Source of the DNA: an uncultured Arenicella sp.
GTDB taxonomy: Bacteria; Pseudomonadota; Gammaproteobacteria; Arenicellales; Arenicellaceae
DNA length: 64,000 bases
Direction: 5' to 3'
NCBI GenBank assembly: GCA_937974565.1
Contig: CALJWL010000035.1
Coordinates: forward strand, 1-64,000
Both the position numbers and the translations under genes were made by a program. Below, in pieces: positions 173 to 32,175 of this stretch (positions are counted from its first letter, which is position 1; every line of letters begins with the position of its first letter). The notes under the pieces are model-generated. The model did no database searches, had not been told where the DNA came from, and worked only from the letters and a program-made list of their open reading frames with translations.

Positions 173-889
173 TTAACCACACTTACTATCACCGCAATTC
201 AAACAAGTCATACACCCATCCATAAGAACCAAAGCTTTAGTTGAGCATTTAGCACAAACACTCGCCGTCTCTGGAAAGTCACCTGTATTCGCTTCTGCTG
301 AGCTGCTACTCTGAGCGGCATCAATCTCGGCGCGTTTCTTAGCCAGGAACTCCTTCTGGTGGTCGTCCAAGTTATCTATTTTGATCATGCCAATCATTTG
401 CATGTGGCGCTCTATGCAGTGGCCAATTTCAGCCACGATAGAAGGCATAAAGATGCCGCCGGGTTTGAAGTAACCGCCTTTGGGGTCAAACACCGCTTTA
501 AGTTCTTCAACCATAAACGTGGTGTCACCTCCTTTTCGAAACACGGCGGAGATCAACCGTGTTAGCGCTACAACCCATTGGAAGTTATCCATGTTTTTTG
601 AGTTGATGAACACTTCAAACGGGCGGCGAGCCTCGTGTTCTGTGCCTTCATTTAGGATGATGTCATTGATGGTGATGTACATCGCGTGTTCAGTAACCGG
701 GGTTTTTACCTTGTAGGTAGAACCCACCAACATGTCTGGGCGCTGCACCGATTCGTGCATTCGTACGACTTCGGCTTTTTTCATTTCTTGCTCGCTTTCT
801 TCCGGCGTAGCAACACGCATAGGTTCTTGTTCAACTTCATCAGTTTTTACTTTGAAGCCTGTAATTTTTCGTTCAATTTTTTTAACCAT
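173..889 (-). CDS. nrdJb: Class II ribonucleotide reductase subunit NrdJb (C-terminal part)
   Basis: Carries the C-terminal part of adenosylcobalamin-dependent ribonucleotide reductase, which works with NrdJa to reduce ribonucleotides. The middle of the protein (roughly residues 55-180) is a TSCPD-type domain (ITINDIILNEGTEHEARRPF; GGIFMPSIVAEIGHCIERHM). The end is Cys-rich with CAKC, CMTC, LNCG and a terminal KCG; this tail is the part that in class II enzymes passes reducing equivalents to the active site. The start is set at the ATG giving MVKKIERK, which follows the ribosome site GGAGGAAC; an in-frame TTG five codons upstream lies within that site and is rejected. In Pseudomonas-type split enzymes this gene directly follows nrdJa, but here nrdJa is about 7.7 kb away. 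The length (238 aa) fits the family. Confidence 0.9.
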   Translation of the reverse strand: MVKKIERKITGFKVKTDEVEQEPMRVATPEESEQEMKKAEVVRMHESVQRPDMLVGSTYKVKTPVTEHAMYITINDIILNEGTEHEARRPFEVFINSKNMDNFQWVVALTRLISAVFRKGGDTTFMVEELKAVFDPKGGYFKPGGIFMPSIVAEIGHCIERHMQMIGMIKIDNLDDHQKEFLAKKRAEIDAAQSSSSAEANTGDFPETASVCAKCSTKALVLMDGCMTCLNCGDSKCG

Positions 890-1097
890 ATTAGGTTCCT
901 CCAAGGACTAAACTGCTTGGTTGAGGTGGCAGTTCAGTCTGTATTTTTCTTTTTCTAAGCTCACTGGCTGAGTATTGATACTTAACAAGAAAGGCTAATG
1001 CATTGATGATGGCAATGCGGTGCTGATCGACCTTCAATCACATTTAGCAAATGTGCCCTTAAAAGCTCTCAGCAGAAACTGAAATTTGGGACAATTC

Positions 1098-1144
1098 ACA
1101 CAACATATGGCGAAGAAACGGAATCCTAACACAATATGTTGTGT
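1098..1144 (-). promoter_or_regulatory. Tandem NrdR boxes upstream of nrdJb
   Basis: Two 16-bp sites start at 1098 and 1129, 31 bp apart. ACACAATATGTTGTGT (1129-1144) matches the NrdR consensus acaCwAtATaTwGtgt at 15 of 16 positions; ACACAACATATGGCGA (1098-1113) matches at 12 of 16. Tandem boxes spaced 31-32 bp are the known signature of the repressor NrdR, which controls ribonucleotide reductase genes. The pair sits 209 bp upstream of the nrdJb start. A TTGACA hexamer for the leftward strand lies at 1160-1165, but no good -10 at standard spacing was found. Confidence 0.8.
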
Positions 1145-1149
1145 TTTTG

Positions 1150-1190
1150 TTTGACTATTTGTCAAAATAAACTTAAGATTTAAAATCTTA
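1150..1190 (+). promoter_or_regulatory. Promoter and two palindromic operators of the HTH gene
   Basis: A rightward sigma-70 promoter reads TTGACT (1151-1156), a 17-bp spacer, and TAAGAT (1174-1179). Each hexamer is embedded in a perfect inverted repeat: TTTGAC-N5-GTCAAA (1150-1166) over the -35, and TAAGATTT-A-AAATCTTA (1174-1190) over the -10. This layout is expected for an autoregulated repressor, the likely binder being the HTH protein encoded at 1258. The rest of the 890-1257 gap, apart from the NrdR boxes, shows nothing recognisable. Confidence 0.6.
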
Positions 1191-1257
1191 GCAAATTTGG
1201 TCGAACTTTATTTAAAAGCGATTCAAAATCGTTCAACATTAGCCCTTGTCGTTTAGA

Positions 1258-1533
1258 ATGAAGATAGGCTCCACTTTAAAAAAATTGCGCCACAAGAGAT
1301 CGCTTACGCTAGAGGATGTCTCTGTTTCTAGCGGTTTGTCTATTTCATACATTAGCTGCCTTGAAAGGGATAAGCGTAATATCAACTTTACCGCGCTCGG
1401 TAAGATTTCAAAGGCCCTTGCCATCCCTATACCCGTCATCATTTTTTTGTCCGCTTCGGAAGAAGACTTTGGCCAAAGTGACAAAACACTGATCTCTCTT
1501 CAAGCTACTTTAGCAGCTTATATTTTGGGGTAA
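1258..1533 (+). CDS. Small XRE-family HTH transcriptional regulator
   Basis: A 91-residue protein that is almost entirely one helix-turn-helix domain (STLKKLRHKRSLTLEDVSVS, SGLSISYISCLERDKRNINF). It has no ligand-binding or oligomerisation domain beyond a short C-terminal tail. The start is set at the ATG (MKIGSTLKK); a TTG four codons upstream gives a longer version, and neither start has a clear ribosome site. It converges with the giant oxidoreductase fusion gene and diverges from nrdJb. Palindromes over its own promoter suggest autoregulation. Its targets are unknown; the fusion gene and nrdJb are the nearest candidates. Confidence 0.75.
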   Translation: MKIGSTLKKLRHKRSLTLEDVSVSSGLSISYISCLERDKRNINFTALGKISKALAIPIPVIIFLSASEEDFGQSDKTLISLQATLAAYILG

Positions 1534-1549
1534 GCCCCAAAATATAAGC
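1516..1549. terminator. Perfect 15-bp hairpin at the convergent gene ends
   Basis: GCTTATATTTTGGGG (1516-1530) and its exact complement (1535-1549) flank a 4-nt loop. The TAA stop of the HTH gene is the first three loop bases, so the left arm is coding (AYILG). It lies between convergent genes, where a two-way terminator is expected, but no T-run follows on either strand. It may therefore be a transcript-end stabiliser rather than a classic intrinsic terminator. Confidence 0.65.
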
Positions 1550-1562
1550 CATTTGGTCTACC

Positions 1563-4500
1563 TCACAGGCAAACCAAATTTTCGATATCAGAATCTTGCT
1601 CAACATTCGCTTCATTTTTTTCTATCTTCTTTGGCAATAAGATCACGCGTTTATAATTGCCATGACTTCGGTCAAACTCACAATGCACCTCTGAATGGTC
1701 TTTTTTCTCCATCACTTCAACTAAACAAAAGCCATCACCATGTTTAATGAAATCTGTAGATACATTACATCTATAACCATCACAAGGGTTACTCAAATTA
1801 GAGAATGAAAAACTCTCATTTGCAGCTAAATCCCATGGCCTGGAGTTTGCAAATGTATAAGGGGCATAGAATGCAGAACTGATAATAATATTAATTTCGG
1901 CAGCCGTTTTCATCTGGGTATCCTTAATCACCGCTTTTGATACACAAGAGAGATGCTCATCCCCACATAAGAAAACAATGTTATTAATTTTATTCTCAGC
2001 AATAAATACCAACAAACGATTAAGTGTTTCAGGGTAGCCAGTCCAACCATCTGACTTGATAGAAGCGGCCGATGTCTTACCTTCTACAGCCACTGCATGT
2101 CTGGGCAGAAAGGTAGAAGGAGACAGAATGAAGACGGGCTTATTTAGTTCTTTATTTTTAATCAGCCATTCGGTCAAATGTTGATATTGCTCATCTGCAA
2201 TTAGTTTAGCTGTCTCAATATTTGCGGCTGTTCGAGGGGTTCGTTCAGTTCGCGTATCCAGCGTAAAAAATGCATAACCATTATGCTTAGATGTATACCA
2301 AAGCCGCCCTTCATTAGAAAGCTGAGACACATTTTGATAGCGCATAAATGATGCTACGCCGATACGCATATTTTGGTCATTTTCTACGTCACCAGGGATC
2401 GGTTCCCAATCTGTCTCAATTTCATGATCGTCTAGCATTGTGTGCGCAGGCAAGCGCCTTCGTACAGACCGAACGTACTGGTTACCGTACAGTACTTCAT
2501 AAGGTTTGGTATAACGTTCAAAGAGATCATTCTCTGCAAAAAGTCCAGTCGATGGGTCTGCGTAAATTTGATCCCCAACTAATGTCATAAATTGAGGTCG
2601 TTGATTTGAAGCCTGAGTATCTAGGCGTTTGCTCAAACGTCGATATGAATCGTCAGCCATATAACCATCAATAACCCAAGACGGGTACTGACAACTACCG
2701 TGTATAAAACACAAATTAGAGTCTCTCTTAACGTATTTTTCGGGCACAGACTCGATTAAGCCTGCCCTTATATCATCGGCTTGAGATTCTATATAGCTCT
2801 TTAACTCTCTAGCTATAGTTGCTTTGAGTTCTGATGATAATGAAGATTCGGCCATCGAGACAATGTCATTAATCTCCGGTGTTGCTTGAGATCGAATACT
2901 GATATCACTCAACATTAATATCAACATACCCGTTGTATTTGGTTCCCACAGTGCCGAACTCAATGAGAGGTTACAGATGCCATGTTCATCAAAGGCAATC
3001 GATTTAATGAACGGGCTTACAAACATGCCATTGCCATTTTGATATTGAACTCCTCCTATTGATGTTGAATTAATAAGGGGCACAACGAGTATGTAATCTG
3101 GCTTAGGGTTAAAAGGGTCTCTGCCGCAGAGAATGGGCAAACAGTCAATGTTTGTCTTATTCTTCCAATGTCCAATAATTGGGCCTAATGAAGGCAACGC
3201 CAGTTGGCATTCAAAAACTGGGAAGGGTGGGCTGGATACGCTGTCTATTTGTTTTTGAAGGAACGCTTCAACACGCTCATACACCTTAACCGAATTTTTC
3301 CCTATCCATAGATCTTGGTGACCTATGCCTTCGAAGATTTCAACTTCGGTGGGGTATTGTGAGCTACGTAATAGGCGCTCAGTTCGTTTAGCAGAAGAAA
3401 CATCAAAGAGCGCATTGTCTTCTCCGTGAATATGCAATATTGGAAAACGTAAACAGTTTTGTATTTTTTGGGGAGACGTAAAGTCATTACGACCATTATC
3501 GTCCGTCACGCTTCCTGCTTTGGCAAAGTGTATGGTTTTGCCTAAAGTCTCCATATTAAAATCACCAAAAAAATCGTCCAAATGGCACAAAACATTATCC
3601 GACACTTGGCTCACTGAAAATAGTTGGTTAAATAACGCATCGACCCTATGGAGAGTTTTCGTATATGGCGCTACCTTCCAAGGTGTTAGCGGATTTTTTC
3701 GAATAAACTCCTTGTTTTTATAAGGCAATACCGCCAACAATCGGTCAAGCAAGGAATCGCTCACATTGGACTTTTTATCCGTATTGTATTGGTATTGATC
3801 CATCGGTAATACGCGCCAGTATAGATCAAACAAATAAGATCGAAACTGACTGCCAGGACTCGCAAACATAGACAGCCCAGCCTGAGTTGTTATGAGGCGG
3901 TTTATCTTGTCCGGCAACGCTTGCCTTTTATCACTGTGCCGATATGCATCAGCTTGATTGTTATCCGCCAAAAGAGCGATGATCATCGTTGTTGCCCCCA
4001 TACAGTGAGCCACAACGTTGCAACGCTGGCCTCCTGTCGCTTGATAGATATAATCAATGGCAACAGGCATATCTTCATAGGCAACGGTCTCAAAAGACCA
4101 TTGCTTACTAGCCGTCTCTAGGGCGTGACTGGTGCGTAACTCAACAATCCATATATCATGCCCTTTATGCCACATGTATTCAGCGAAACTGGGCTCTAAA
4201 GCTGGATGAGCAAATGTATTTCCGCCCGTGCTAAATCCGTGAAACAACACAAGAGGCTTACTAGCTTCGCTCTTTCCTTTGTAGCGTGTAAGCAATATTT
4301 GAACTGCTTCGTCTTGCTCGGTATACGAAACAGTCAGCGGTATTCTTTGAGGTTGCGGCAACCCGTCTAACGGAACTGGCAACGTTCCGTATGACGGCTT
4401 TTCGACATAGCTATCGGGTAGTCGAAAACTCCACAGGTGAATTGAAATAATGGCCCTGAAAAAGTACAACGCCAACGAAATAAAATCTAATGTTGAAGCA

Positions 4501-7280
4501 GACAAGTCCCGATGTTTCACTACTCTGAGTAAGGGCACGGCAATATGAGCCAGAAAGCCAACATCCAAACTCAAGACAGCCGTCTGTTTCCCCCCGCTGT
4601 ACAAACCAGGAAAGTCGGTTAACGTCATATCCATTAATTGACGCAAAGGGTTTGAAGCACGTTTATAAGTAAGCACTTTACTGCCCTTTATTTGAGCGTT
4701 CTCACTGGTATCAAGAATGCTTTTTAACGGTGTATGGGGTTGCTTATAGGCCGCTTTACCCAACACTAACTCATAGTCTAAGGATCGTGCCTCACCGGCA
4801 TGAGAAGCCAGTTTAATTGCGTTCGTTATTCCTTGGCAAATAATACTTAACGTGTTTTTTTTAGCGTCTTGAGAGTCAGCGCTAACGCCTTTGTCTTCTT
4901 TAAGTGCCTGCCATGTATCACGTAAACCTCGATTCAATACCCATGCATAGAGCGCCCTTGCTGTTCTTCCAAACGAACTTGAACGTCTTAGTTGCATCAC
5001 ACTCAATCGTCCTGACAACGGGATTGTTGCGTCCGCCGTTTTCTCCAACGCCAATTCCAATCGATTTCCACGTAGCCCACTTTGCTTTATACGTTTCCAT
5101 TCATGCGGTTGATAAATTCGCAACTCACTCTTCACTCCGGTATCGAGACATTCCTTAGCCACAAGTAAATCCGCGCTCTTCATCTTTGCCAACTCCATCA
5201 CATCCTTATTTTCGAACGATAAAGTTATCTCAAATATCCACGGCCTAGGTTTATCATTGAACGATTTCAGCCAGACCTCGCCAACGGTTCGTTCAATGAT
5301 TTGAATTTCTGTAGGAACATGATCTTCTTCTAGTGCTTCTTTAGCCGTCATCCCGTACAAAGGGTAAGCTTTATCTAATATCGGTCGATTACCTACACTT
5401 ACACTGTTTTCATACTCGCTGCCTCTTGTTAACCCCCAATCTTGACGCACGCCTTCAATAGCCCGCAAGGCAAGCACTGCAATCGTTAGTGCCGGGTTAA
5501 CACCTAACGCGCTTGGGATAATTGCACCATCCAAGACAAGTAGGCCTGGATGAGTTTCATGGCTTTGACCCTTGCCATCAAAAACGCGCCCACGATGATC
5601 AACAACACCGTCCTTACTATTTGCCCCCATCGCACACCCGCCCAATGGGTGAACGGTAAGCACGGGACCCTTCTCGTTGTTGGTTAAAAAAATCATCGAC
5701 TTAGGTAGGTATTGCCACAAAGATGAAATGTTGCCTTCAAGATTGCTGCCTTTGGTTAGCGTCTCTAACTTATTTAATTGTTTAGAAAAAATACGTTTAT
5801 TTCGAACTTCAGGCCATTTTGTGTTTAACGTGCCATCACTATACAAATCGTCTTTATCTGCATTTAATTGTAATTTTCCGTCGGCATTGTCATCCCCCAT
5901 CACAGCATAAACCACGGTTCTATCAATCTGATCATCGTCGACAGCAAAATGATCTTTTAAGGGTACGCCATTCCTTTGGAAACTTTTATCTCGAGTCACA
6001 AGCCGGGACATTGAATTGGTTGTGGTTACCAACTCCTCGAATATAAACTTCAACGACGCTGGAATACCAAGCTCTTCGATGAGTAGAGGCTCTTGATTTT
6101 CATCACACATCGCTTCAATAACGGTCGTGCAGGTTGGACCTATCTCACGCGTATTGGCAGGCTTAGAATTACGTGCTACTGCATTTACTACCGTTTCTTC
6201 ATTGCTGCTGGTCCCAGTAGCAAGCATATCCCCATTAGCCGAGTAATTTTCACCCAATCGATCGGAAAATTTCAGTGATTCGCTTTGAGACCGCATCAGT
6301 ATTTCAGTTGAACCGTAAGTACCCGCTGAGATAATCAGGTTTTTAACTTTTAAGACGGTCGGTTCTTTTTGACGCCTTCTAAGCCGTTTTTCTGTATGAG
6401 TCACATACACCAACCATCCATTTTCATGTTTCTCAAATTTATGTACGGTCGCGCCAGTAAAAACATGTGCCCCCTTTTTTACGGCCGTCACTAGTAAGTT
6501 AGTATCCAGTGACTCTTTCGCTTGGTAGTTACACCCTGATGCACAATCACCGCAAAAATTACAGGCTTTTAAGCTGATACCTGCGTCATTTTTTTTATCC
6601 TCCATCGATACTGTTATGGCGGCATCTCGGAACTTTACTTCTTGTTTATTTTTCTCAGCCAAGTCTCTCATCACCTGATATTTAAGAGGTGGCTTTTTAA
6701 AATGTCGCTTAATCGTATTGAGGCCTTCTTGGTCTGCTGCGCCTAGCATGATTTTAGCTCGTTCATAGTAGTCGGTTAAATCTTGCTTGAATTCATCAGG
6801 CCAACCCTTTGAAAAGACCTCACGCCTAGGCACTTCCATAACACCCGCATTAATAAGCGAACCTCCCCCTAAACCGCTACCCAATACAGCGGACACGTCT
6901 TCACCAATACGAACATCAAAGAGCGCTTCTTTCTCACCATGCGCTTCCTGATCACTGGGGCCGGAAAAACGCACAGCCGTGGGCATATCGGTCATCGATG
7001 CTGGAAACATGCCGGGTAAATATTCACGGCCACGCTCAAGCACGCATACTGACTGCGGCTGTCCATTTAACTCGTAACCAGCCAGTTCTGCCGCAGCGAT
7101 TGCGCCACCATAACCACTGCCGACAATCAAAGTGTCATAATGATATTCAAGCGCATTGTTCGAAACTGAGGTGTACTCATAGAGCAATTCCTCAAATCCT
7201 CGAGATAACCACCTGGAAGATGAGTTAGTACAGTTTATGGGATACCTTGATCTGAAATTTTTATCTAAAGGTTTATTCAT
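1563..7280 (-). CDS. Giant fusion: GMC oxidoreductase + alpha/beta hydrolase + PhoD-like metallophosphoesterase
   Basis: A single 1905-residue reading frame with three catalytic modules. Residues ~45-630 form a GMC flavoprotein of the cholesterol-oxidase type: the FAD-binding VGSGYGG at 53-59, a Cys cluster at 240, 243, 246 and 250, the catalytic-region HPLGGC with His544, and a C-terminal NPALTIAVLALRA. Residues ~1010-1370 form an alpha/beta hydrolase (VLFHGFSTGG; nucleophile elbow AHCMG with Cys1093 where Ser is usual; late acid in HGED; catalytic His in GIGHQD). Residues ~1520-1860 form a PhoD-like metallophosphoesterase with GDQIYAD (Asp1570), LDDHE (His1619) and CGDEH (Asp1774, His1776). 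No secretion signal was seen. Oxidation of a sterol-like or other hydrophobic alcohol, then ester or acyl cleavage and phosphoester hydrolysis, is an inference from the domains; the substrate is unknown. It lies between the two nrdJ halves. Confidence 0.88.
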   Translation of the reverse strand: MNKPLDKNFRSRYPINCTNSSSRWLSRGFEELLYEYTSVSNNALEYHYDTLIVGSGYGGAIAAAELAGYELNGQPQSVCVLERGREYLPGMFPASMTDMPTAVRFSGPSDQEAHGEKEALFDVRIGEDVSAVLGSGLGGGSLINAGVMEVPRREVFSKGWPDEFKQDLTDYYERAKIMLGAADQEGLNTIKRHFKKPPLKYQVMRDLAEKNKQEVKFRDAAITVSMEDKKNDAGISLKACNFCGDCASGCNYQAKESLDTNLLVTAVKKGAHVFTGATVHKFEKHENGWLVYVTHTEKRLRRRQKEPTVLKVKNLIISAGTYGSTEILMRSQSESLKFSDRLGENYSANGDMLATGTSSNEETVVNAVARNSKPANTREIGPTCTTVIEAMCDENQEPLLIEELGIPASLKFIFEELVTTTNSMSRLVTRDKSFQRNGVPLKDHFAVDDDQIDRTVVYAVMGDDNADGKLQLNADKDDLYSDGTLNTKWPEVRNKRIFSKQLNKLETLTKGSNLEGNISSLWQYLPKSMIFLTNNEKGPVLTVHPLGGCAMGANSKDGVVDHRGRVFDGKGQSHETHPGLLVLDGAIIPSALGVNPALTIAVLALRAIEGVRQDWGLTRGSEYENSVSVGNRPILDKAYPLYGMTAKEALEEDHVPTEIQIIERTVGEVWLKSFNDKPRPWIFEITLSFENKDVMELAKMKSADLLVAKECLDTGVKSELRIYQPHEWKRIKQSGLRGNRLELALEKTADATIPLSGRLSVMQLRRSSSFGRTARALYAWVLNRGLRDTWQALKEDKGVSADSQDAKKNTLSIICQGITNAIKLASHAGEARSLDYELVLGKAAYKQPHTPLKSILDTSENAQIKGSKVLTYKRASNPLRQLMDMTLTDFPGLYSGGKQTAVLSLDVGFLAHIAVPLLRVVKHRDLSASTLDFISLALYFFRAIISIHLWSFRLPDSYVEKPSYGTLPVPLDGLPQPQRIPLTVSYTEQDEAVQILLTRYKGKSEASKPLVLFHGFSTGGNTFAHPALEPSFAEYMWHKGHDIWIVELRTSHALETASKQWSFETVAYEDMPVAIDYIYQATGGQRCNVVAHCMGATTMIIALLADNNQADAYRHSDKRQALPDKINRLITTQAGLSMFASPGSQFRSYLFDLYWRVLPMDQYQYNTDKKSNVSDSLLDRLLAVLPYKNKEFIRKNPLTPWKVAPYTKTLHRVDALFNQLFSVSQVSDNVLCHLDDFFGDFNMETLGKTIHFAKAGSVTDDNGRNDFTSPQKIQNCLRFPILHIHGEDNALFDVSSAKRTERLLRSSQYPTEVEIFEGIGHQDLWIGKNSVKVYERVEAFLQKQIDSVSSPPFPVFECQLALPSLGPIIGHWKNKTNIDCLPILCGRDPFNPKPDYILVVPLINSTSIGGVQYQNGNGMFVSPFIKSIAFDEHGICNLSLSSALWEPNTTGMLILMLSDISIRSQATPEINDIVSMAESSLSSELKATIARELKSYIESQADDIRAGLIESVPEKYVKRDSNLCFIHGSCQYPSWVIDGYMADDSYRRLSKRLDTQASNQRPQFMTLVGDQIYADPSTGLFAENDLFERYTKPYEVLYGNQYVRSVRRRLPAHTMLDDHEIETDWEPIPGDVENDQNMRIGVASFMRYQNVSQLSNEGRLWYTSKHNGYAFFTLDTRTERTPRTAANIETAKLIADEQYQHLTEWLIKNKELNKPVFILSPSTFLPRHAVAVEGKTSAASIKSDGWTGYPETLNRLLVFIAENKINNIVFLCGDEHLSCVSKAVIKDTQMKTAAEINIIISSAFYAPYTFANSRPWDLAANESFSFSNLSNPCDGYRCNVSTDFIKHGDGFCLVEVMEKKDHSEVHCEFDRSHGNYKRVILLPKKIEKNEANVEQDSDIENLVCL

Positions 7281-7742
7281 GGGAACTTAATTTTGTTAGA
7301 GGCCACAAAGAGGGGGTGACCAGAGTTTATGAGGCACGGGGAAAGCAACTAAAACCAAGCATAAGTGACCCTAATGCGATGATAATCATCAGCTTTAACG
7401 CTCTATGCATATTGAAAATAATGGTGAAACACCACTTGAGGCAAGCATTGAAAGACCAACGAATTCAGTGAAAATCACACATTAATTCAACAAATGACCA
7501 GCATGTGTGAGCTAAATAAAGATGGCCGTATCAACAGGTACTCAGCATGGGAAAATCTCCGCATTAAGTGGCTCAGCATGATACTGATAGGAAGTCACTT
7601 AATGAGCGTAATTATATCAAACCACTGTTGTTTTAAACAGCTATTTTTACCACCTAAACGTCCTTTAATTGTTGTCAGGGTATTGGGTAATTAAACTTAC
7701 AAACAAAAATAATTTCGCATGACCTAAATCTGACAACGCCCC
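7281..7742. other. Intergenic region upstream of the fusion gene
   Basis: No coding region with a start signal or recognisable domain was found in these 462 bases. They should hold the leftward promoter of the giant fusion gene. An inverted pair GTTGTCAG (7672-7679) and CTGACAAC (7731-7738) is 51 bp apart, just downstream of the membrane-protein stop codon. No T-run follows the second arm, so it is not an obvious terminator. Confidence 0.5.
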
Positions 7743-8387
7743 CTAATTACGCGACTTAGATTCGATCACTAGGCCAATAAAAGGCAAACCTAAATACGTA
7801 GATAGTGTCATGATAGATAATTCATTAACCGTCTCAGGCAATATTAGAAATGACGACAATTGTATTAAAACCAACAGAGCCGCAAAAGAAACGAGGTATG
7901 ACTTAAGCATCCCAGAGCCAGATTGCTTCATAATCAAATAGCTAATTGAAGCGACCACCAAACCCAACTCGAGAGCCAACGCTATTAAAGGGTAATTCCA
8001 CAAACCAAGCCCAACCTTAGTACCCTCAACAAGTTGTAAATCAGGCCTATGAACAACGAGGTCAAAGAACCAATGAGATACAACAACCAATGCTATAAAA
8101 AAGCATTCTCTGTGGCTTAGGTTAAATTTCGATGAAGTTCTGACCAGGCCGTAAGCAATCAAAGCCCAAAATGCAGCCGCTAACAAGCTGTGCGTATAAG
8201 GCATGTAAAAAAGATCCAAAGGGTTCGACAACAAACTAGGATCAATTCTCACTTGCTCAACTCCTGTAACGATAAATATCGCCCAAAGAATATCAACAAA
8301 TTGTGCGGCCACAATGAGTAACCAAAACGGAATCCTAGGCGATAGCGCCTTGGTTAAAATTGCAGCGCAGTAATGGCCTACAAACAT
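7743..8387 (-). CDS. Multi-spanning membrane protein with conserved His/Asp motifs (metal-dependent hydrolase-like)
   Basis: A 214-residue protein with about six hydrophobic segments. Polar motifs sit within or beside membrane helices: FVGHYCA (His5), QFVDILW (Asp32), YTHSLL (His66) and SHWFFDLVVHRPD (His105, Asp109, His113, Asp116). The spacing recalls membrane-bound proteins annotated as YdjM/DUF457-like metal-dependent hydrolases, but the assignment is by motif resemblance only and the activity is unproven. It is transcribed in the same direction as the giant fusion gene, 462 bp upstream of it, and both lie inside the DNA separating the nrdJ halves, so they may form one functional module. 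Confidence 0.7.
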   Translation of the reverse strand: MFVGHYCAAILTKALSPRIPFWLLIVAAQFVDILWAIFIVTGVEQVRIDPSLLSNPLDLFYMPYTHSLLAAAFWALIAYGLVRTSSKFNLSHRECFFIALVVVSHWFFDLVVHRPDLQLVEGTKVGLGLWNYPLIALALELGLVVASISYLIMKQSGSGMLKSYLVSFAALLVLIQLSSFLILPETVNELSIMTLSTYLGLPFIGLVIESKSRN

Positions 8388-8471
8388 ACTCGATCACCCT
8401 AAATGAGCGTGGTTTACGAAAGTAAAAAAACAAATCAGCATTTCATTACGTCCACACATAATGAAAATGAT

Positions 8472-8507
8472 AATGGGTGACTGCAACAGAAAAAACAGTC
8501 ACCCATT
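8472..8507 (-). terminator. Hairpin downstream of nrdJa
   Basis: A perfect 12-bp stem, AATGGGTGACTG and CAGTCACCCATT, encloses a 12-nt loop. It lies about 85 bp beyond the nrdJa stop codon. The leftward transcript continues into a moderately T-rich stretch. It probably ends or stabilises the nrdJa message, so nrdJb would need its own promoter. Confidence 0.6.
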
Positions 8508-8590
8508 TCTAAGGGCCTACGGTGCCATTTTGTGAGGGCCGTTTTTTTTATCAGGCTAGACGGAGAATAATGGAAAATGAACCGACCAAA

Positions 8591-10786
8591 TTAAAACTTC
8601 CCGTAATAGCCTTCTTTCAAAGCATCGAAGAGATTTGCCGCCGTATGCGTCTCACCGTCGTACTCCACTTCTTCGTTGCCTTTTAGCTCCATTGTGCTGC
8701 CGTCTTCTAAGGTGAATTGGTAAATGGTGTTTTCCAAGTCGTCTTCTTTCACCAGAACGCCTTGAAATGCTTCTGGGTTAAAGCGAAATGTGGTGCATCC
8801 TTTTAAGCCTTTATCATACGCGTACATATAAATGTCTTTAAAATCTTCGTACGGGTAGTCTGTTGGCACGTTGGCGGTTTTCGAAATACTAGAGTCCACC
8901 CATTTTTGTGCTGCGGCTTGAATATCCACGTGTTGCTTTGGTGTGATGGAGTCCGAGGTTACAAAGTTTTCGGGCAACTGTTCTTCTGGATTTTCCGAAT
9001 ACGGCATGGCGTTGGCATTAACCACTTCGCGGTAAGCCAACAGCTCATACGAGAACACATCGACTTTTTCTTTGGTCTTACGACCTTCGCGAATGACGTT
9101 GCGCGAATAGTGGTGCGCAAAACTTGGTTCAATACCGTTGCTGGCATTATTCGCCATTGAAAGTGAAATGGTGCCAGTAGGTGCAATAGAACTGTGGTGT
9201 GAAAAACGCGCGCCAACTTTAGATAACTCTTCAATTAACTCTGGGTCGATTTCACCAATTTGCTGCATATAACGGCTGTATTTTGCGTGCAATTCAGCTC
9301 CCGATACAGAGTCGCCAATGGCGTAGCCGTCTTGCGCCATTTCTGGTCGCAGACTCAACATTTCTTCGTTAACCGTGAAGATTTCTTGCATGATGGGCGC
9401 GGCCCCCTTTTCTTTCGCCAGCGCTAATGCTTGATTCCAACCCGACATGGCCATTTCACGAGCAATGCTCTCAGTGAACTCAATTGAAGGTTCATCGCCG
9501 TAGGTCATGCCCAACATCGTAACGGTTGAACCTAGGCCTAAAAAGCCCATTCCATGGCGGCGTTTACGTTCAATTTCAGCACGTTGGCCGCCTAACGGCA
9601 ACCCATTGATTTCAACCACATTATCAAGCATGCGTGTAAACACACCTACAACTTCACGGTATTTATCCCAATCAAAACGGGCCTCTTCTGAAAATGGGTC
9701 AAGCACAAACTTGGTGAGATTAACCGAACCCAACAGACAACTGCCGTATGGTGGCAAAGGTTGTTCGCCGCACGGATTAGTAGCACGAATGTTTTCTACA
9801 AACCAATTGTTGTTCTTGTTGTTAACTTCGTCGATCAGGATAAAGCCTGGCTCGGCGAAATCGTAGGTTGAAGTCATGATCATGTTCCACAATCGATTCG
9901 CAGGGATCGTTTTGTAGACTTTACAGGCGGTTAACCCTTGATCGTTTTTCACATAGCCGTTGTCCGCAGGGTAACGTCGCCACATGATTTCAGATGAAGT
10001 GTAAACGTCAATGCCGTCTTCTTTCGCTTCTTTTTCGGTAATGGGGAACGACAACGACCAATCCGTGTCATTTTTAACCGCCTCAATAAACTCGGAGGTG
10101 ATTAATAACGACAGATTGAACTGGCGCAATCGACCGTCTTCGCGTTTGGCACGAATAAATTCTTCTACGTCAGGATGGCTGACATCAAACGTGGCCATTT
10201 GCGCACCGCGCCGCCCACCCGCCGATGAAACCGTAAAACACATTTTGTCGAAGATATCCATAAACGACAATGGGCCTGATGTGTAAGCACCCGCCCCTGA
10301 AACATACGCGCCTTTAGGTCGTAACGTTGAAAATTCATACCCTATACCGCAGCCCGCTTTTAGTGTCATACCGGCTTCGTGATTCTTATTTAGGATGTCG
10401 TCCATTGAGTCTGTGATGGTGCCAGACACCGTACAGTTAATGGTTGACGTGGCTGGCTTGTAAGCTTGCGCGCCAGCATTGGAAATAATGCGGCCCGCGG
10501 GTAAAGCGCCATTTTCCAACGCCCAGACAAAGCGCTCATACCAATGCTCGCGCAACTCGTCGGTTACTTCCACACCAGAAAGCGCTGAGGCAACGCGCTC
10601 AAGTGTGTCTTGAGTGGTAACGTCAACTTCTTTTCCTGCTTTGTCTTTTAAGCGGTATTTTTTGTCCCAGATGTCTTCTGAAGTAGATTGAAGCCCCATT
10701 TGCTTCAACTTTTTCTCCCCGCCTTTGCTCGTAGCAACGGATAGTGTTTGAGTAACGACGTTGAGTTCTTCAACAGGTTTGCCCAT
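8591..10786 (-). CDS. nrdJa: Class II (adenosylcobalamin-dependent) ribonucleotide reductase catalytic subunit NrdJa
   Basis: Catalytic part of the coenzyme-B12-dependent ribonucleotide reductase, which makes deoxyribonucleotides with or without oxygen. The motif NPCGE at 337-341 carries the predicted thiyl-radical Cys339; Cys118 (INCTVSG) and Cys350 (YGSCLLG) are the predicted redox pair, and the 11-residue spacing of Cys339 and Cys350 is as in the Lactobacillus enzyme. PTGTISLSM is the conserved substrate-site loop. The protein is 731 aa and ends at EGYYGKF without the Cys-rich C-terminal tail, which is encoded separately in nrdJb. The start follows GAGGAACCTAACC, closely matching the ribosome site of nrdJb. 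Tandem NrdR-like boxes lie 567 bp upstream. Confidence 0.95.
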   Translation of the reverse strand: MGKPVEELNVVTQTLSVATSKGGEKKLKQMGLQSTSEDIWDKKYRLKDKAGKEVDVTTQDTLERVASALSGVEVTDELREHWYERFVWALENGALPAGRIISNAGAQAYKPATSTINCTVSGTITDSMDDILNKNHEAGMTLKAGCGIGYEFSTLRPKGAYVSGAGAYTSGPLSFMDIFDKMCFTVSSAGGRRGAQMATFDVSHPDVEEFIRAKREDGRLRQFNLSLLITSEFIEAVKNDTDWSLSFPITEKEAKEDGIDVYTSSEIMWRRYPADNGYVKNDQGLTACKVYKTIPANRLWNMIMTSTYDFAEPGFILIDEVNNKNNNWFVENIRATNPCGEQPLPPYGSCLLGSVNLTKFVLDPFSEEARFDWDKYREVVGVFTRMLDNVVEINGLPLGGQRAEIERKRRHGMGFLGLGSTVTMLGMTYGDEPSIEFTESIAREMAMSGWNQALALAKEKGAAPIMQEIFTVNEEMLSLRPEMAQDGYAIGDSVSGAELHAKYSRYMQQIGEIDPELIEELSKVGARFSHHSSIAPTGTISLSMANNASNGIEPSFAHHYSRNVIREGRKTKEKVDVFSYELLAYREVVNANAMPYSENPEEQLPENFVTSDSITPKQHVDIQAAAQKWVDSSISKTANVPTDYPYEDFKDIYMYAYDKGLKGCTTFRFNPEAFQGVLVKEDDLENTIYQFTLEDGSTMELKGNEEVEYDGETHTAANLFDALKEGYYGKF

Positions 10787-30939: not shown

Positions 30940-32175
30940 ATGCCATCAAATATGAGTGACAATAATACGCCGCCTGAGAATATTAACCTGCAACCAAAAA
31001 AGCGTTCTGGGTTGGCACGTTTCTTCTCTCGCAATAAACCCGCAAAAGCCGACGAGACGGCTCTTGCCTCTCCATCTGCGGCTGACGGCTCTTTATCATC
31101 GGCTGAAGGTTCTTTATCATCGGCTGAAGGTTCTCTATCATCGGCTGAAGGTTCTCTATCACCGGCTGAAGGTTCTCTATCACCGGCTGAAGGCTCTCTA
31201 TCACCGGCTGAAGGCTCTGCCCTCTCAGCCGTTGATGATTTGGCCGCTGAGAACGATACGCCACCGGTCTCGGTAGAAGAAGGCTTGGATAAAAGCCGGT
31301 CAAGTTTGCTGGGTAAAATCAGCAGTGCATTCAAAGGTTCATTTGATCTGGATGACGACCTTTTTGATGATCTTGAAGAGGCCTTAATCACCAGCGACAT
31401 TAGCGTCGACGCCAGCCTTAACTTGGTTGAGCGCTTACGAGAACGCGTAAAGAACGACAAAATTCAAGATGCCGCTGGAGTCGTGCAAGGTTTGCGTGCC
31501 GAAGTGGCCGACATGCTAAAACCGGCAGAGCAAGACTGGGCTGTTTTTAACCAACGCCCCTATGTGTTGGTGATGGTCGGGGTGAATGGCGCAGGCAAAA
31601 CCACCACCATCGCCAAAATAGCTAAACAATTTCAAGACCAAGGCAAATCGGTGATACTCGCAGCGGCAGACACATTCAGAGCGGCCGCGGTAGAGCAGTT
31701 GCAAGAATGGGGCCAACGCATGAACATACCGGTGGTGGCACAAAAGCACGGTGCTGACGCAGCGGCCGTCGCGCACGACGCGCTTAACTCCGCAATTGTT
31801 AAAGGCTCACACGTGTTAATTATTGACACAGCAGGTCGGCTGCATACGCAGTCTGACCTTATGGAACAACTGCAAAAAGTGAATCGAGTTCTTAATAACC
31901 TCGACCCATCAATGCCACACGAAGTGATGCAAATTTTAGACGCGAGTACTGGCCAAAATGCACTGTCGCAACTTGAGCATTTTCAGAAAGCCGTTGGCGT
32001 GAATAGCGTTTGCTTAACCAAACTTGATGGTTCCGCTAAAGGTGGTGTTGCGGTATCCGTAACGCAAAAGTTTAAGCTGCCCATTCGATATATTGGCGTG
32101 GGCGAAGGCTATTACGATTTACGGCCATTCGAAGCACAAGCGTTTGCAGATGCGTTGATCCCTGATTTAGCGTAA
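30940..32175 (+). CDS. ftsY: Signal recognition particle receptor FtsY
   Basis: GTPase that receives SRP-ribosome complexes at the membrane. The NG domain fills the C-terminal ~300 residues: P-loop GVNGAGKTT (214-222), ADTFRAAAVEQL, IDTAGRLHTQSDLM and TKLDGSAKGG. The N-terminal acidic A domain, normally variable, contains an almost perfect seven-residue repeat (consensus SLSSAEG or SLSPAEG) encoded by 21-bp DNA repeats. Two ATGs four codons apart (30940, 30952) are possible starts. It leads ftsY-ftsE-ftsX. The repeats should change only the length of the flexible linker. Confidence 0.95.
   Translation: MPSNMSDNNTPPENINLQPKKRSGLARFFSRNKPAKADETALASPSAADGSLSSAEGSLSSAEGSLSSAEGSLSPAEGSLSPAEGSLSPAEGSALSAVDDLAAENDTPPVSVEEGLDKSRSSLLGKISSAFKGSFDLDDDLFDDLEEALITSDISVDASLNLVERLRERVKNDKIQDAAGVVQGLRAEVADMLKPAEQDWAVFNQRPYVLVMVGVNGAGKTTTIAKIAKQFQDQGKSVILAAADTFRAAAVEQLQEWGQRMNIPVVAQKHGADAAAVAHDALNSAIVKGSHVLIIDTAGRLHTQSDLMEQLQKVNRVLNNLDPSMPHEVMQILDASTGQNALSQLEHFQKAVGVNSVCLTKLDGSAKGGVAVSVTQKFKLPIRYIGVGEGYYDLRPFEAQAFADALIPDLA
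31087..31212 (+). repeat. Six tandem 21-bp repeats inside ftsY
   Basis: Six complete 21-bp units follow one another without gaps, each coding for GSLSSAE or GSLSPAE. Units 1-3 carry TCATCG and units 4-6 carry TCACCG at the same place, which suggests two successive expansions. A partial unit follows. Because 21 is a multiple of three, gain or loss of units keeps the reading frame. Confidence 0.92.

Follow-up and report, generated by a model that had tools for sequence, protein, structure and literature searches.

A three-part GMC oxidoreductase, acid-lipase-like hydrolase and PhoD-like protein of an uncultured Arenicella, and its fused and split relatives

A single gene of an uncultured Arenicella sp. 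encodes a protein of 1905 residues (P0001) in which a GMC oxidoreductase part, an alpha/beta-hydrolase part with the modelled fold of an acid lipase and a PhoD-like phosphoesterase part follow each other, and this three-part order is widespread but patchy, the PhoD part being either fused to the other two or encoded by the following frame. The gene lies on the minus strand (7280→1563) of the stretch of 64,000 nucleotides that was analysed (contig CALJWL010000035.1), further called the window. The folds of the three catalytic parts are already known. As best explanation for their combination we consider a multienzyme that would act stepwise on one class of hydrophobic alcohols, esters or phosphoesters by three linked reactions, to which we assign slightly less than an even chance. 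The observations behind it are the domains and their modelled folds, the conserved residues, the repeated fusion or adjacency of the parts and the finding that none of the rows tested begins with a hydrophobic N-terminus.

The gene (1563..7280) starts with ATG, has no internal stop, and was recovered whole, at 100%, in the genome from which the window derives (G000:C35); the plus strand over 1563-7280, read in one frame, contains many stops. Pfam matches on P0001 were GMC_oxred_N (58.2 bits, residues 129-331), GMC_oxred_C (46.3 bits, 542-604), Abhydrolase_1 (35.8 bits, 1008-1325) and PhoD (74.7 bits, cut-off 27, 1546-1795), all above the curated cut-offs, which confirms the preliminary description of three catalytic-type domains encoded in one continuous, unbroken frame of 1905 codons. 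Interruption of the frame by a sequencing error, which was named there as a possible refutation, is ruled out by the relatives that carry all parts in one frame (41 of the best 80 out of 141, with lengths of 1711-2090 aa), and an assembly or frame error as origin of the fusion was rejected on the same ground. The fusion joint lies near residue 1345.

A genome scan with P0001 alone as query yielded no relative, whereas an alignment of five three-part proteins, used to scan named genomes of bacteria and archaea, yielded 141, of which the best 80 were kept; where titles in this set name a group, it is Alpha-, Beta- or Gammaproteobacteria. The 80 loci comprise the 41 with all parts in one frame, 34 with PhoD as the following frame and five that are cut by a contig end. 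At the split loci, the start of the PhoD frame can overlap the preceding stop by four bases in 17 of 34 cases, an arrangement that is the usual sign of translational coupling and may indicate it here, and in a further 16 a PhoD start lies within 60 bases; the remaining one (L120), in which neither applies and the PhoD frame, possibly broken, lies 590 bases downstream, is included in the split count, as is L126, of which the GMC part is broken. Relatedness within the alignment of five (A1) is modest in that the window copy shares 36-38% identity with the other four proteins, two of which are from the same genus.

The distribution is uneven even among close relatives. Three of 17 other genomes of the genus contain three-part relatives, as one frame in G006 and G009 and as two pieces at contig ends in G007; the latter also has a two-domain form without PhoD, which at the search strength used is the only form in G004, G005 and G015. 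In 398 Pseudomonadota genomes that were drawn evenly and include the window's own, the hydrolase and PhoD parts together were matched at E 1e-40 in the own genome and in G215 (split) only, and six more genomes matched one part alone. Plasmid records gave seven matches, all from Ensifer and over 89-91% of the query. The Ensifer canadensis copy (L032, 10001-15728) is matched in three pieces with a longest frame of 1665 aa, and probably is a broken frame. Another refutation named earlier was that the same order might prove widespread and already characterised; the order is indeed widespread, be it patchily, and no description of it was found in the open-access full texts searched.

The two-domain GMC-hydrolase proteins (about 1130-1330 aa), found in Azospirillum, Leptospira, Bernardetia and genomes of the same genus, have the same first two parts as P0001 but lack the PhoD part. 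A quick tree of 87 rows, calculated without bootstrap and with L068, L123, L126 and L128 set aside, separates ten of them from the three-part group with a support of 100. Nine changes between fused and split states are needed on this tree, in which the branches that raised a long-branch warning include that of the window copy. The recurrence of fused and split forms, the support of 100 and the nine changes are what is expected for parts that work together. For the residue conservation given below, 89 relatives were counted, with only L123 (no hydrolase part) left out and L126 counted with gaps; the model alignments used 38 of the 41 fused loci (without L068, L073 and L083), and 22 of the 41 went into alignments A4 and A5.

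The GMC part (residues 45-620; 5421..7148, minus strand) has both Pfam domains, the FAD motif (GSGYGG) and the catalytic His544 and Asn595, which are retained in 89 of 89 relatives, and thus belongs to the GMC superfamily. That it is cholesterol-oxidase-like, as described earlier, is borne out by a Foldseek comparison in which cholesterol oxidases take ranks 1-12, followed at ranks 13-21 by the glucose dehydrogenase of Burkholderia cepacia (BcGDH; 8grj/6a2u) and the fructose dehydrogenase of Gluconobacter. The VIA Z-scores listed for this part (31-34) are tied across many alcohol-oxidising GMC families, cholesterol oxidase standing level with choline oxidase and fructose dehydrogenase, and therefore do not name a substrate. 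Cholesterol oxidase (NF058674) is also the best NCBIfam match of P0001, yet with 160.8 bits against a cut-off of 850. The cholesterol oxidases of Streptomyces and Brevibacterium (1b4v, 1coy), which are secreted enzymes, share with P0001 the GMC fold, the FAD motif, the HPLGG histidine and the GVNP asparagine, but they consist of a lone GMC domain and have no four-cysteine loop in the aligned region.

In P0001 this loop reads CxxCxxCxxxC (C240, C243, C246 and C250; 6531..6563, minus strand). All four cysteines are present in each of the 41 fused relatives, in 33 of the 34 split ones, in four of four cut and in nine of ten two-domain relatives, the exceptional split row being L126 with a gap in its broken frame. 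Four frames that adjoin PF13618 genes, and were typed as GMC-like by their motifs and place, contain a cysteine loop with which it aligns; one of these (L133) has four cysteines with the last gap one residue longer, and the other three lack the second cysteine. The Gluconobacter fructose dehydrogenase holds an Fe-S cluster, and like BcGDH it has the GMC fold and the position of the cysteine loop in common with P0001. In the passages available from the paper on BcGDH (PMC6719666), a 3Fe-4S cluster is described on Cys212, Cys218 and Cys222 at 12-13 Å from the FAD N5, and the spacing of these three ligands (6 and 4) equals that of C240, C246 and C250. The loop in P0001 is thus predicted to bind an Fe-S cluster, and its alignment with Fe-S-type GMC dehydrogenases makes a dehydrogenase more probable than an oxidase. 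A difference is that BcGDH is partnered by a hitchhiker and a cytochrome subunit, according to the same passages, whereas the genome of P0001 (97.87% complete), searched at E 0.001 for the PF13618 hitchhiker subunit, gave no match.

Between the GMC and hydrolase parts lies a middle region (residues 645-925; 4506..5348, minus strand) in which no Pfam family scores above its cut-off and for which neither Pfam nor PDB sequences gave a useful match; lectin matches (E 0.006-0.12) were taken as chance. The region is predicted with high confidence across most of its length, and at least a fifth of the VIA rows are confined to model residues 4-599 (residues 23-618) and 12-397 (961-1346). It runs into a hydrophobic stretch (residues 905-950; 4431..4568, minus strand) that is helical in the model, the top 19-residue mean hydropathy over residues 900-965 being 1.79, and that could possibly make contact with a membrane.

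The hydrolase part (residues 960-1345; 3246..4403, minus strand) was compared by means of a predicted model of residues 950-1905 (pLDDT 83.8, pTM 0.83). Among solved structures it comes closest to lysosomal acid lipase (6v7n; Z 33.2, rmsd 3.0, 336 aligned of 369), which hydrolyses cholesteryl esters, and to gastric lipase (Z 31.9), with the first hydrolase outside the acid-lipase group at Z 25.3. The Abhydrolase_1 match together with the fold, found in 23 of 23 members, substantiates the earlier assignment as alpha/beta hydrolase, and the similarity to gastric and lysosomal acid lipases (1k8q, 1hlg, 6v7n; Z 31.9-33.2) extends over the whole domain. The Ser-Asp-His triad of the acid lipases is nevertheless absent. 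At the nucleophile position, P0001 has Cys1093 (4002..4004, minus strand) where the lipases have serine, as seen in the profile alignment, and at the canonical position of the catalytic aspartate it has Asn1289 (3414..3416, minus strand; aligned to 4rnc), which corresponds to the second Asp in the HGTDD stretch of an esterase; another difference from the lipases is that the domain is part of a larger chain. The catalytic histidine is found as His1321 (3318..3320, minus strand) in a GHxD motif. The earlier statement that key residues are intact in each domain therefore stands for the GMC part (GSGYGG, His544, Asn595) and for nine of ten PhoD positions, and has to be dropped for the hydrolase.

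The replacements are a property of the whole family. Cysteine occupies position 1093 in 89 of 89 relatives, and asparagine position 1289 in 86 of the 88 that could be read, with serine in two and a gap in one further row; the ten two-domain relatives all have the same Cys and Asn as P0001. Histidine is present at position 1321 in 85 of 89 rows (three gaps, one Glu); in another, narrower alignment all 41 fused rows have it. The exchange of Ser for Cys and Asp for Asn could mean a lost or a changed activity. From the conservation we infer that Cys1093, His1321 and Asn1289 may act as a working triad; in the part of the literature on Cys-His-Asn in alpha/beta hydrolases that was accessible, N-acyltransferases turned up.

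The PhoD-like part consists of an N-terminal domain (residues 1346-1512; 2745..3245, minus strand), matched by 2yeq and the place where split genes break, and a catalytic part (residues 1513-1890; 1611..2744, minus strand) recognised by Pfam, fold and residues. The match to PhoD of Bacillus subtilis (2yeq) covers 406 aligned positions with Z 30.5 (model 408-934, residues 1357-1883), and with the 74.7 bits in Pfam it upholds the assignment to the PhoD family. The fold including the N-terminal domain and most active-site positions are common to both proteins, the difference being that PhoD is here fused to or paired with a GMC-hydrolase. Active-site residues of P0001 are C1530, D1570, Y1573, D1617, D1618, H1619, D1624, D1774 and H1776. 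Compared by motif and spacing alone, nine of the ten PhoD residues given for Ramlibacter in the available text of PMC5768637 are the same, and N241 reads Thr1623. The latter position is Asp or Asn in 72 of 75 relatives, positions 1623-1624 being mostly Asp-Asn in the relatives and Thr-Asp in the window. Single active-site residues are missing in a few relatives; among the 41 fused proteins, for instance, three have Asn for Asp1774 and two Arg for His1776.

As to cellular location, the PhoD enzymes known so far are extracytoplasmic according to the sections available from PMC4223295, where it is also described that the B. subtilis enzyme binds Fe3+ and two Ca2+ and that in one subfamily a Cys is an Fe ligand. 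A hydrophobic N-terminus was found in none of the 37 fused proteins tested (of 41) and in none of the 33 split PhoD starts, of which two showed an RR pattern in a loose test. By this crude measure, export of the fused and split proteins appears unlikely, and P0001 is probably cytosolic, perhaps touching the membrane. The binding of Ca2+ by known PhoD enzymes, as reported in those sections, counts against a cytosolic PhoD because this ion is scarce in the cytosol.

In the window, the three-part gene lies between nrdJb (173-904) and nrdJa (8591-10786), which are 7.7 kb apart (173-10786 overall), whereas the matched parts of these genes are separated by 87-507 bases in all 13 other genomes of the genus that have both on one contig. 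Flanked by nrdJb and the three-part gene, a small HTH_3 regulator gene (1246-1533) lies on the plus strand. The gap also holds a gene for a YdjM-like membrane protein (7743..8387, minus strand; 18.6 bits, below the cut-off of 29). In G007 and G009, genes upstream of the three-part gene have products that share 32-39% identity with it; among the best 80 of 141 loci, a YdjM-like match at E 1e-5 occurs only in L067, which is G009. Horizontal arrival would be the simplest account of the window copy, and no clear junction was found at the insertion ends near nrdJ. Elsewhere in the window, a frame at 30940-32175 that by eye is FtsY-like contains towards its N-terminus (about 31070-31240) a run of SLSSAEG-type units that are nearly identical.

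Search for the same domain order and inspection of the neighbours, as had been proposed, thus produced relatives, with PhoD fused in 41 and following in 34 of the best 80 of 141, and it is this alternation of fusion and adjacency that supports a functional link among the parts as assumed in the earlier three-step idea. The three commonest neighbour clusters in this set are regulatory. A hybrid histidine kinase of about 600 aa (cluster C0) occurs in 40 of the 80 loci, directly upstream on the same strand in 37 and elsewhere in the locus in three, a difference that provides a built-in check on chance; any called gene is present upstream in 75. A LuxR-type response regulator occurs in 18 and a cyclase-AAA protein in 13 of the 80. 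The latter is a class III cyclase-AAA ATPase of some 1340 aa with a match to TOMM system kinase/cyclase below the cut-off, and it is found beside the gene in Alphaproteobacteria (L031, L039 and the 13 loci). The curated cut-offs of the best families for the kinase (NahK/ErcS, 285-297 bits, cut-off 400) and for the regulator (ErdR, 111 bits, cut-off 390) were not reached. Four of six scanned kinases have five hydrophobic segments and two have three. According to the available part of PMC12997753, the use of alcohol and acetate as well as the dispersal of biofilms in Pseudomonas is under the control of relatives of these regulators. The window copy has no kinase adjoining it, and the two kinase matches at E 1e-40 in its genome (34% and 29%) are on other contigs. 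Among the downstream genes listed, no further recurrent partner was seen by eye.

At two-domain loci, a metallophosphoesterase-like gene lies directly upstream in six of ten, recognised by Pfam Metallophos above the cut-off (L046, L037) or just below it (L033), by homology to L046 (L047, L048) or by ISDLHL and GHTH motifs only (L034); three have no adjoining phosphoesterase and one is cut by a contig end. Two other arrangements were observed. A stand-alone GMC gene in L051 (1420-4362) is directly followed by a patatin-like phospholipase gene, another lipase-type pairing, and on a plasmid of R. leguminosarum (L038, 288-11276) a two-domain gene has phaC, phaE and a CoA-transferase gene nearby.

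In the multienzyme that we tentatively prefer, the PhoD-like part would open a phosphodiester or phosphomonoester, after which the GMC part could oxidise the resulting or a neighbouring alcohol, while an acceptor different from O2 would receive the electrons via the predicted Fe-S cluster, and the Cys-His-Asn triad of the acid-lipase-like part would act on an acyl group, which is either cleaved off or transferred via a thioester intermediate. We infer here where the protein resides, that it carries an Fe-S cluster and which metals it binds, as well as the three chemistries, the order in which they follow and a single shared substrate. The weakest step is the substrate class, which may be a lipid alcohol, either sterol-like or long-chain. 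A hopanoid, which had been suggested earlier beside a sterol, looks unlikely as substrate since the own genome has only a partial match to hopene cyclase (PF13243; 90 of 319 positions, E 2.1e-4). This match lies in a 5767-aa frame and has to be added up with neighbouring matches in that frame to exceed the cut-off, and we tentatively take it to represent another protein. Across the genus, only partial matches (67-90 of 319 positions) were found, in four of 18 genomes.

In favour of a sterol or steroid ester as substrate are the closest folds, cholesterol oxidase and the cholesteryl ester-hydrolysing lysosomal acid lipase, and the best NCBIfam match. The acid-lipase part would then free the sterol, the GMC part oxidise its 3-OH and the PhoD part strip phosphate from a conjugate. 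Such catabolism we regard as unlikely, as the NCBIfam score of 161 bits is far from 850, the VIA Z-scores are tied with those of choline oxidase and fructose dehydrogenase, and the three commonest neighbour clusters are regulatory, although steroid genes may lie among the smaller ones. Alternatively, the protein could produce or break down a lipid-like signal for the adjoining kinase to sense, with the LuxR-type regulator and the alphaproteobacterial cyclase in the circuit. The kinase directly upstream in 37 of the best 80 loci, with the response regulator in 18 and the cyclase-AAA protein in 13, its five hydrophobic segments in four of six cases and the similarity to NahK/ErcS and ErdR agree with this, but the window copy does without an adjoining kinase, and the kinase may only report the substrate, as do the alcohol- and acetate-use regulators in the accessible text of PMC12997753; we find a signalling role rather improbable.

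The cysteine nucleophile, conserved in 89 of 89 relatives, would also fit an acyltransferase that builds an ester in the manner of PHA synthase from an oxo or hydroxyl substrate supplied by the GMC part. PhaC structures are among the fold matches (Z 22.7-23.8), TIGR01838 matches weakly, and phaC and phaE are about 6 kb away in the one R. leguminosarum two-domain locus. This seems quite doubtful to us, because acid lipases match far better (Z 33.2), the PhaC rows are tied with many esterases, and the acid position is Asn instead of the Asp of PhaC. Finally, the parts could be loosely fused without a shared pathway, or the protein could be a partly inactive scaffold, as the altered triad residues of the hydrolase, the changed PhoD residues in a few relatives and the absence of a known pathway might suggest. 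In each of the three parts, however, the majority of active-site positions is retained over 75 fused or split relatives, and the frames have remained adjacent through repeated fused/split changes, so we consider it highly unlikely. A bolder form of the preferred multienzyme would be an undescribed lipid pathway that joins in one chain an Fe-S GMC alcohol dehydrogenase, a thioester-forming Cys-His-Asn acyltransferase or hydrolase of acid-lipase fold and a cytosolic PhoD phosphodiesterase, with the adjoining kinase sensing the lipid that is made or degraded; in this specific form we deem it unlikely.

The repeated fusion and splitting of the three parts suggests that they act jointly, in a reaction series that is absent from the literature searched. 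Two oddities go with it, namely an acid-lipase fold in which Cys-His-Asn is kept by relatives of two as well as three parts, and a PhoD that lacks an export signal. Sequences that are now labelled only 'alpha/beta fold hydrolase' or 'GMC oxidoreductase' would thereby gain a concrete hypothesis on their function.
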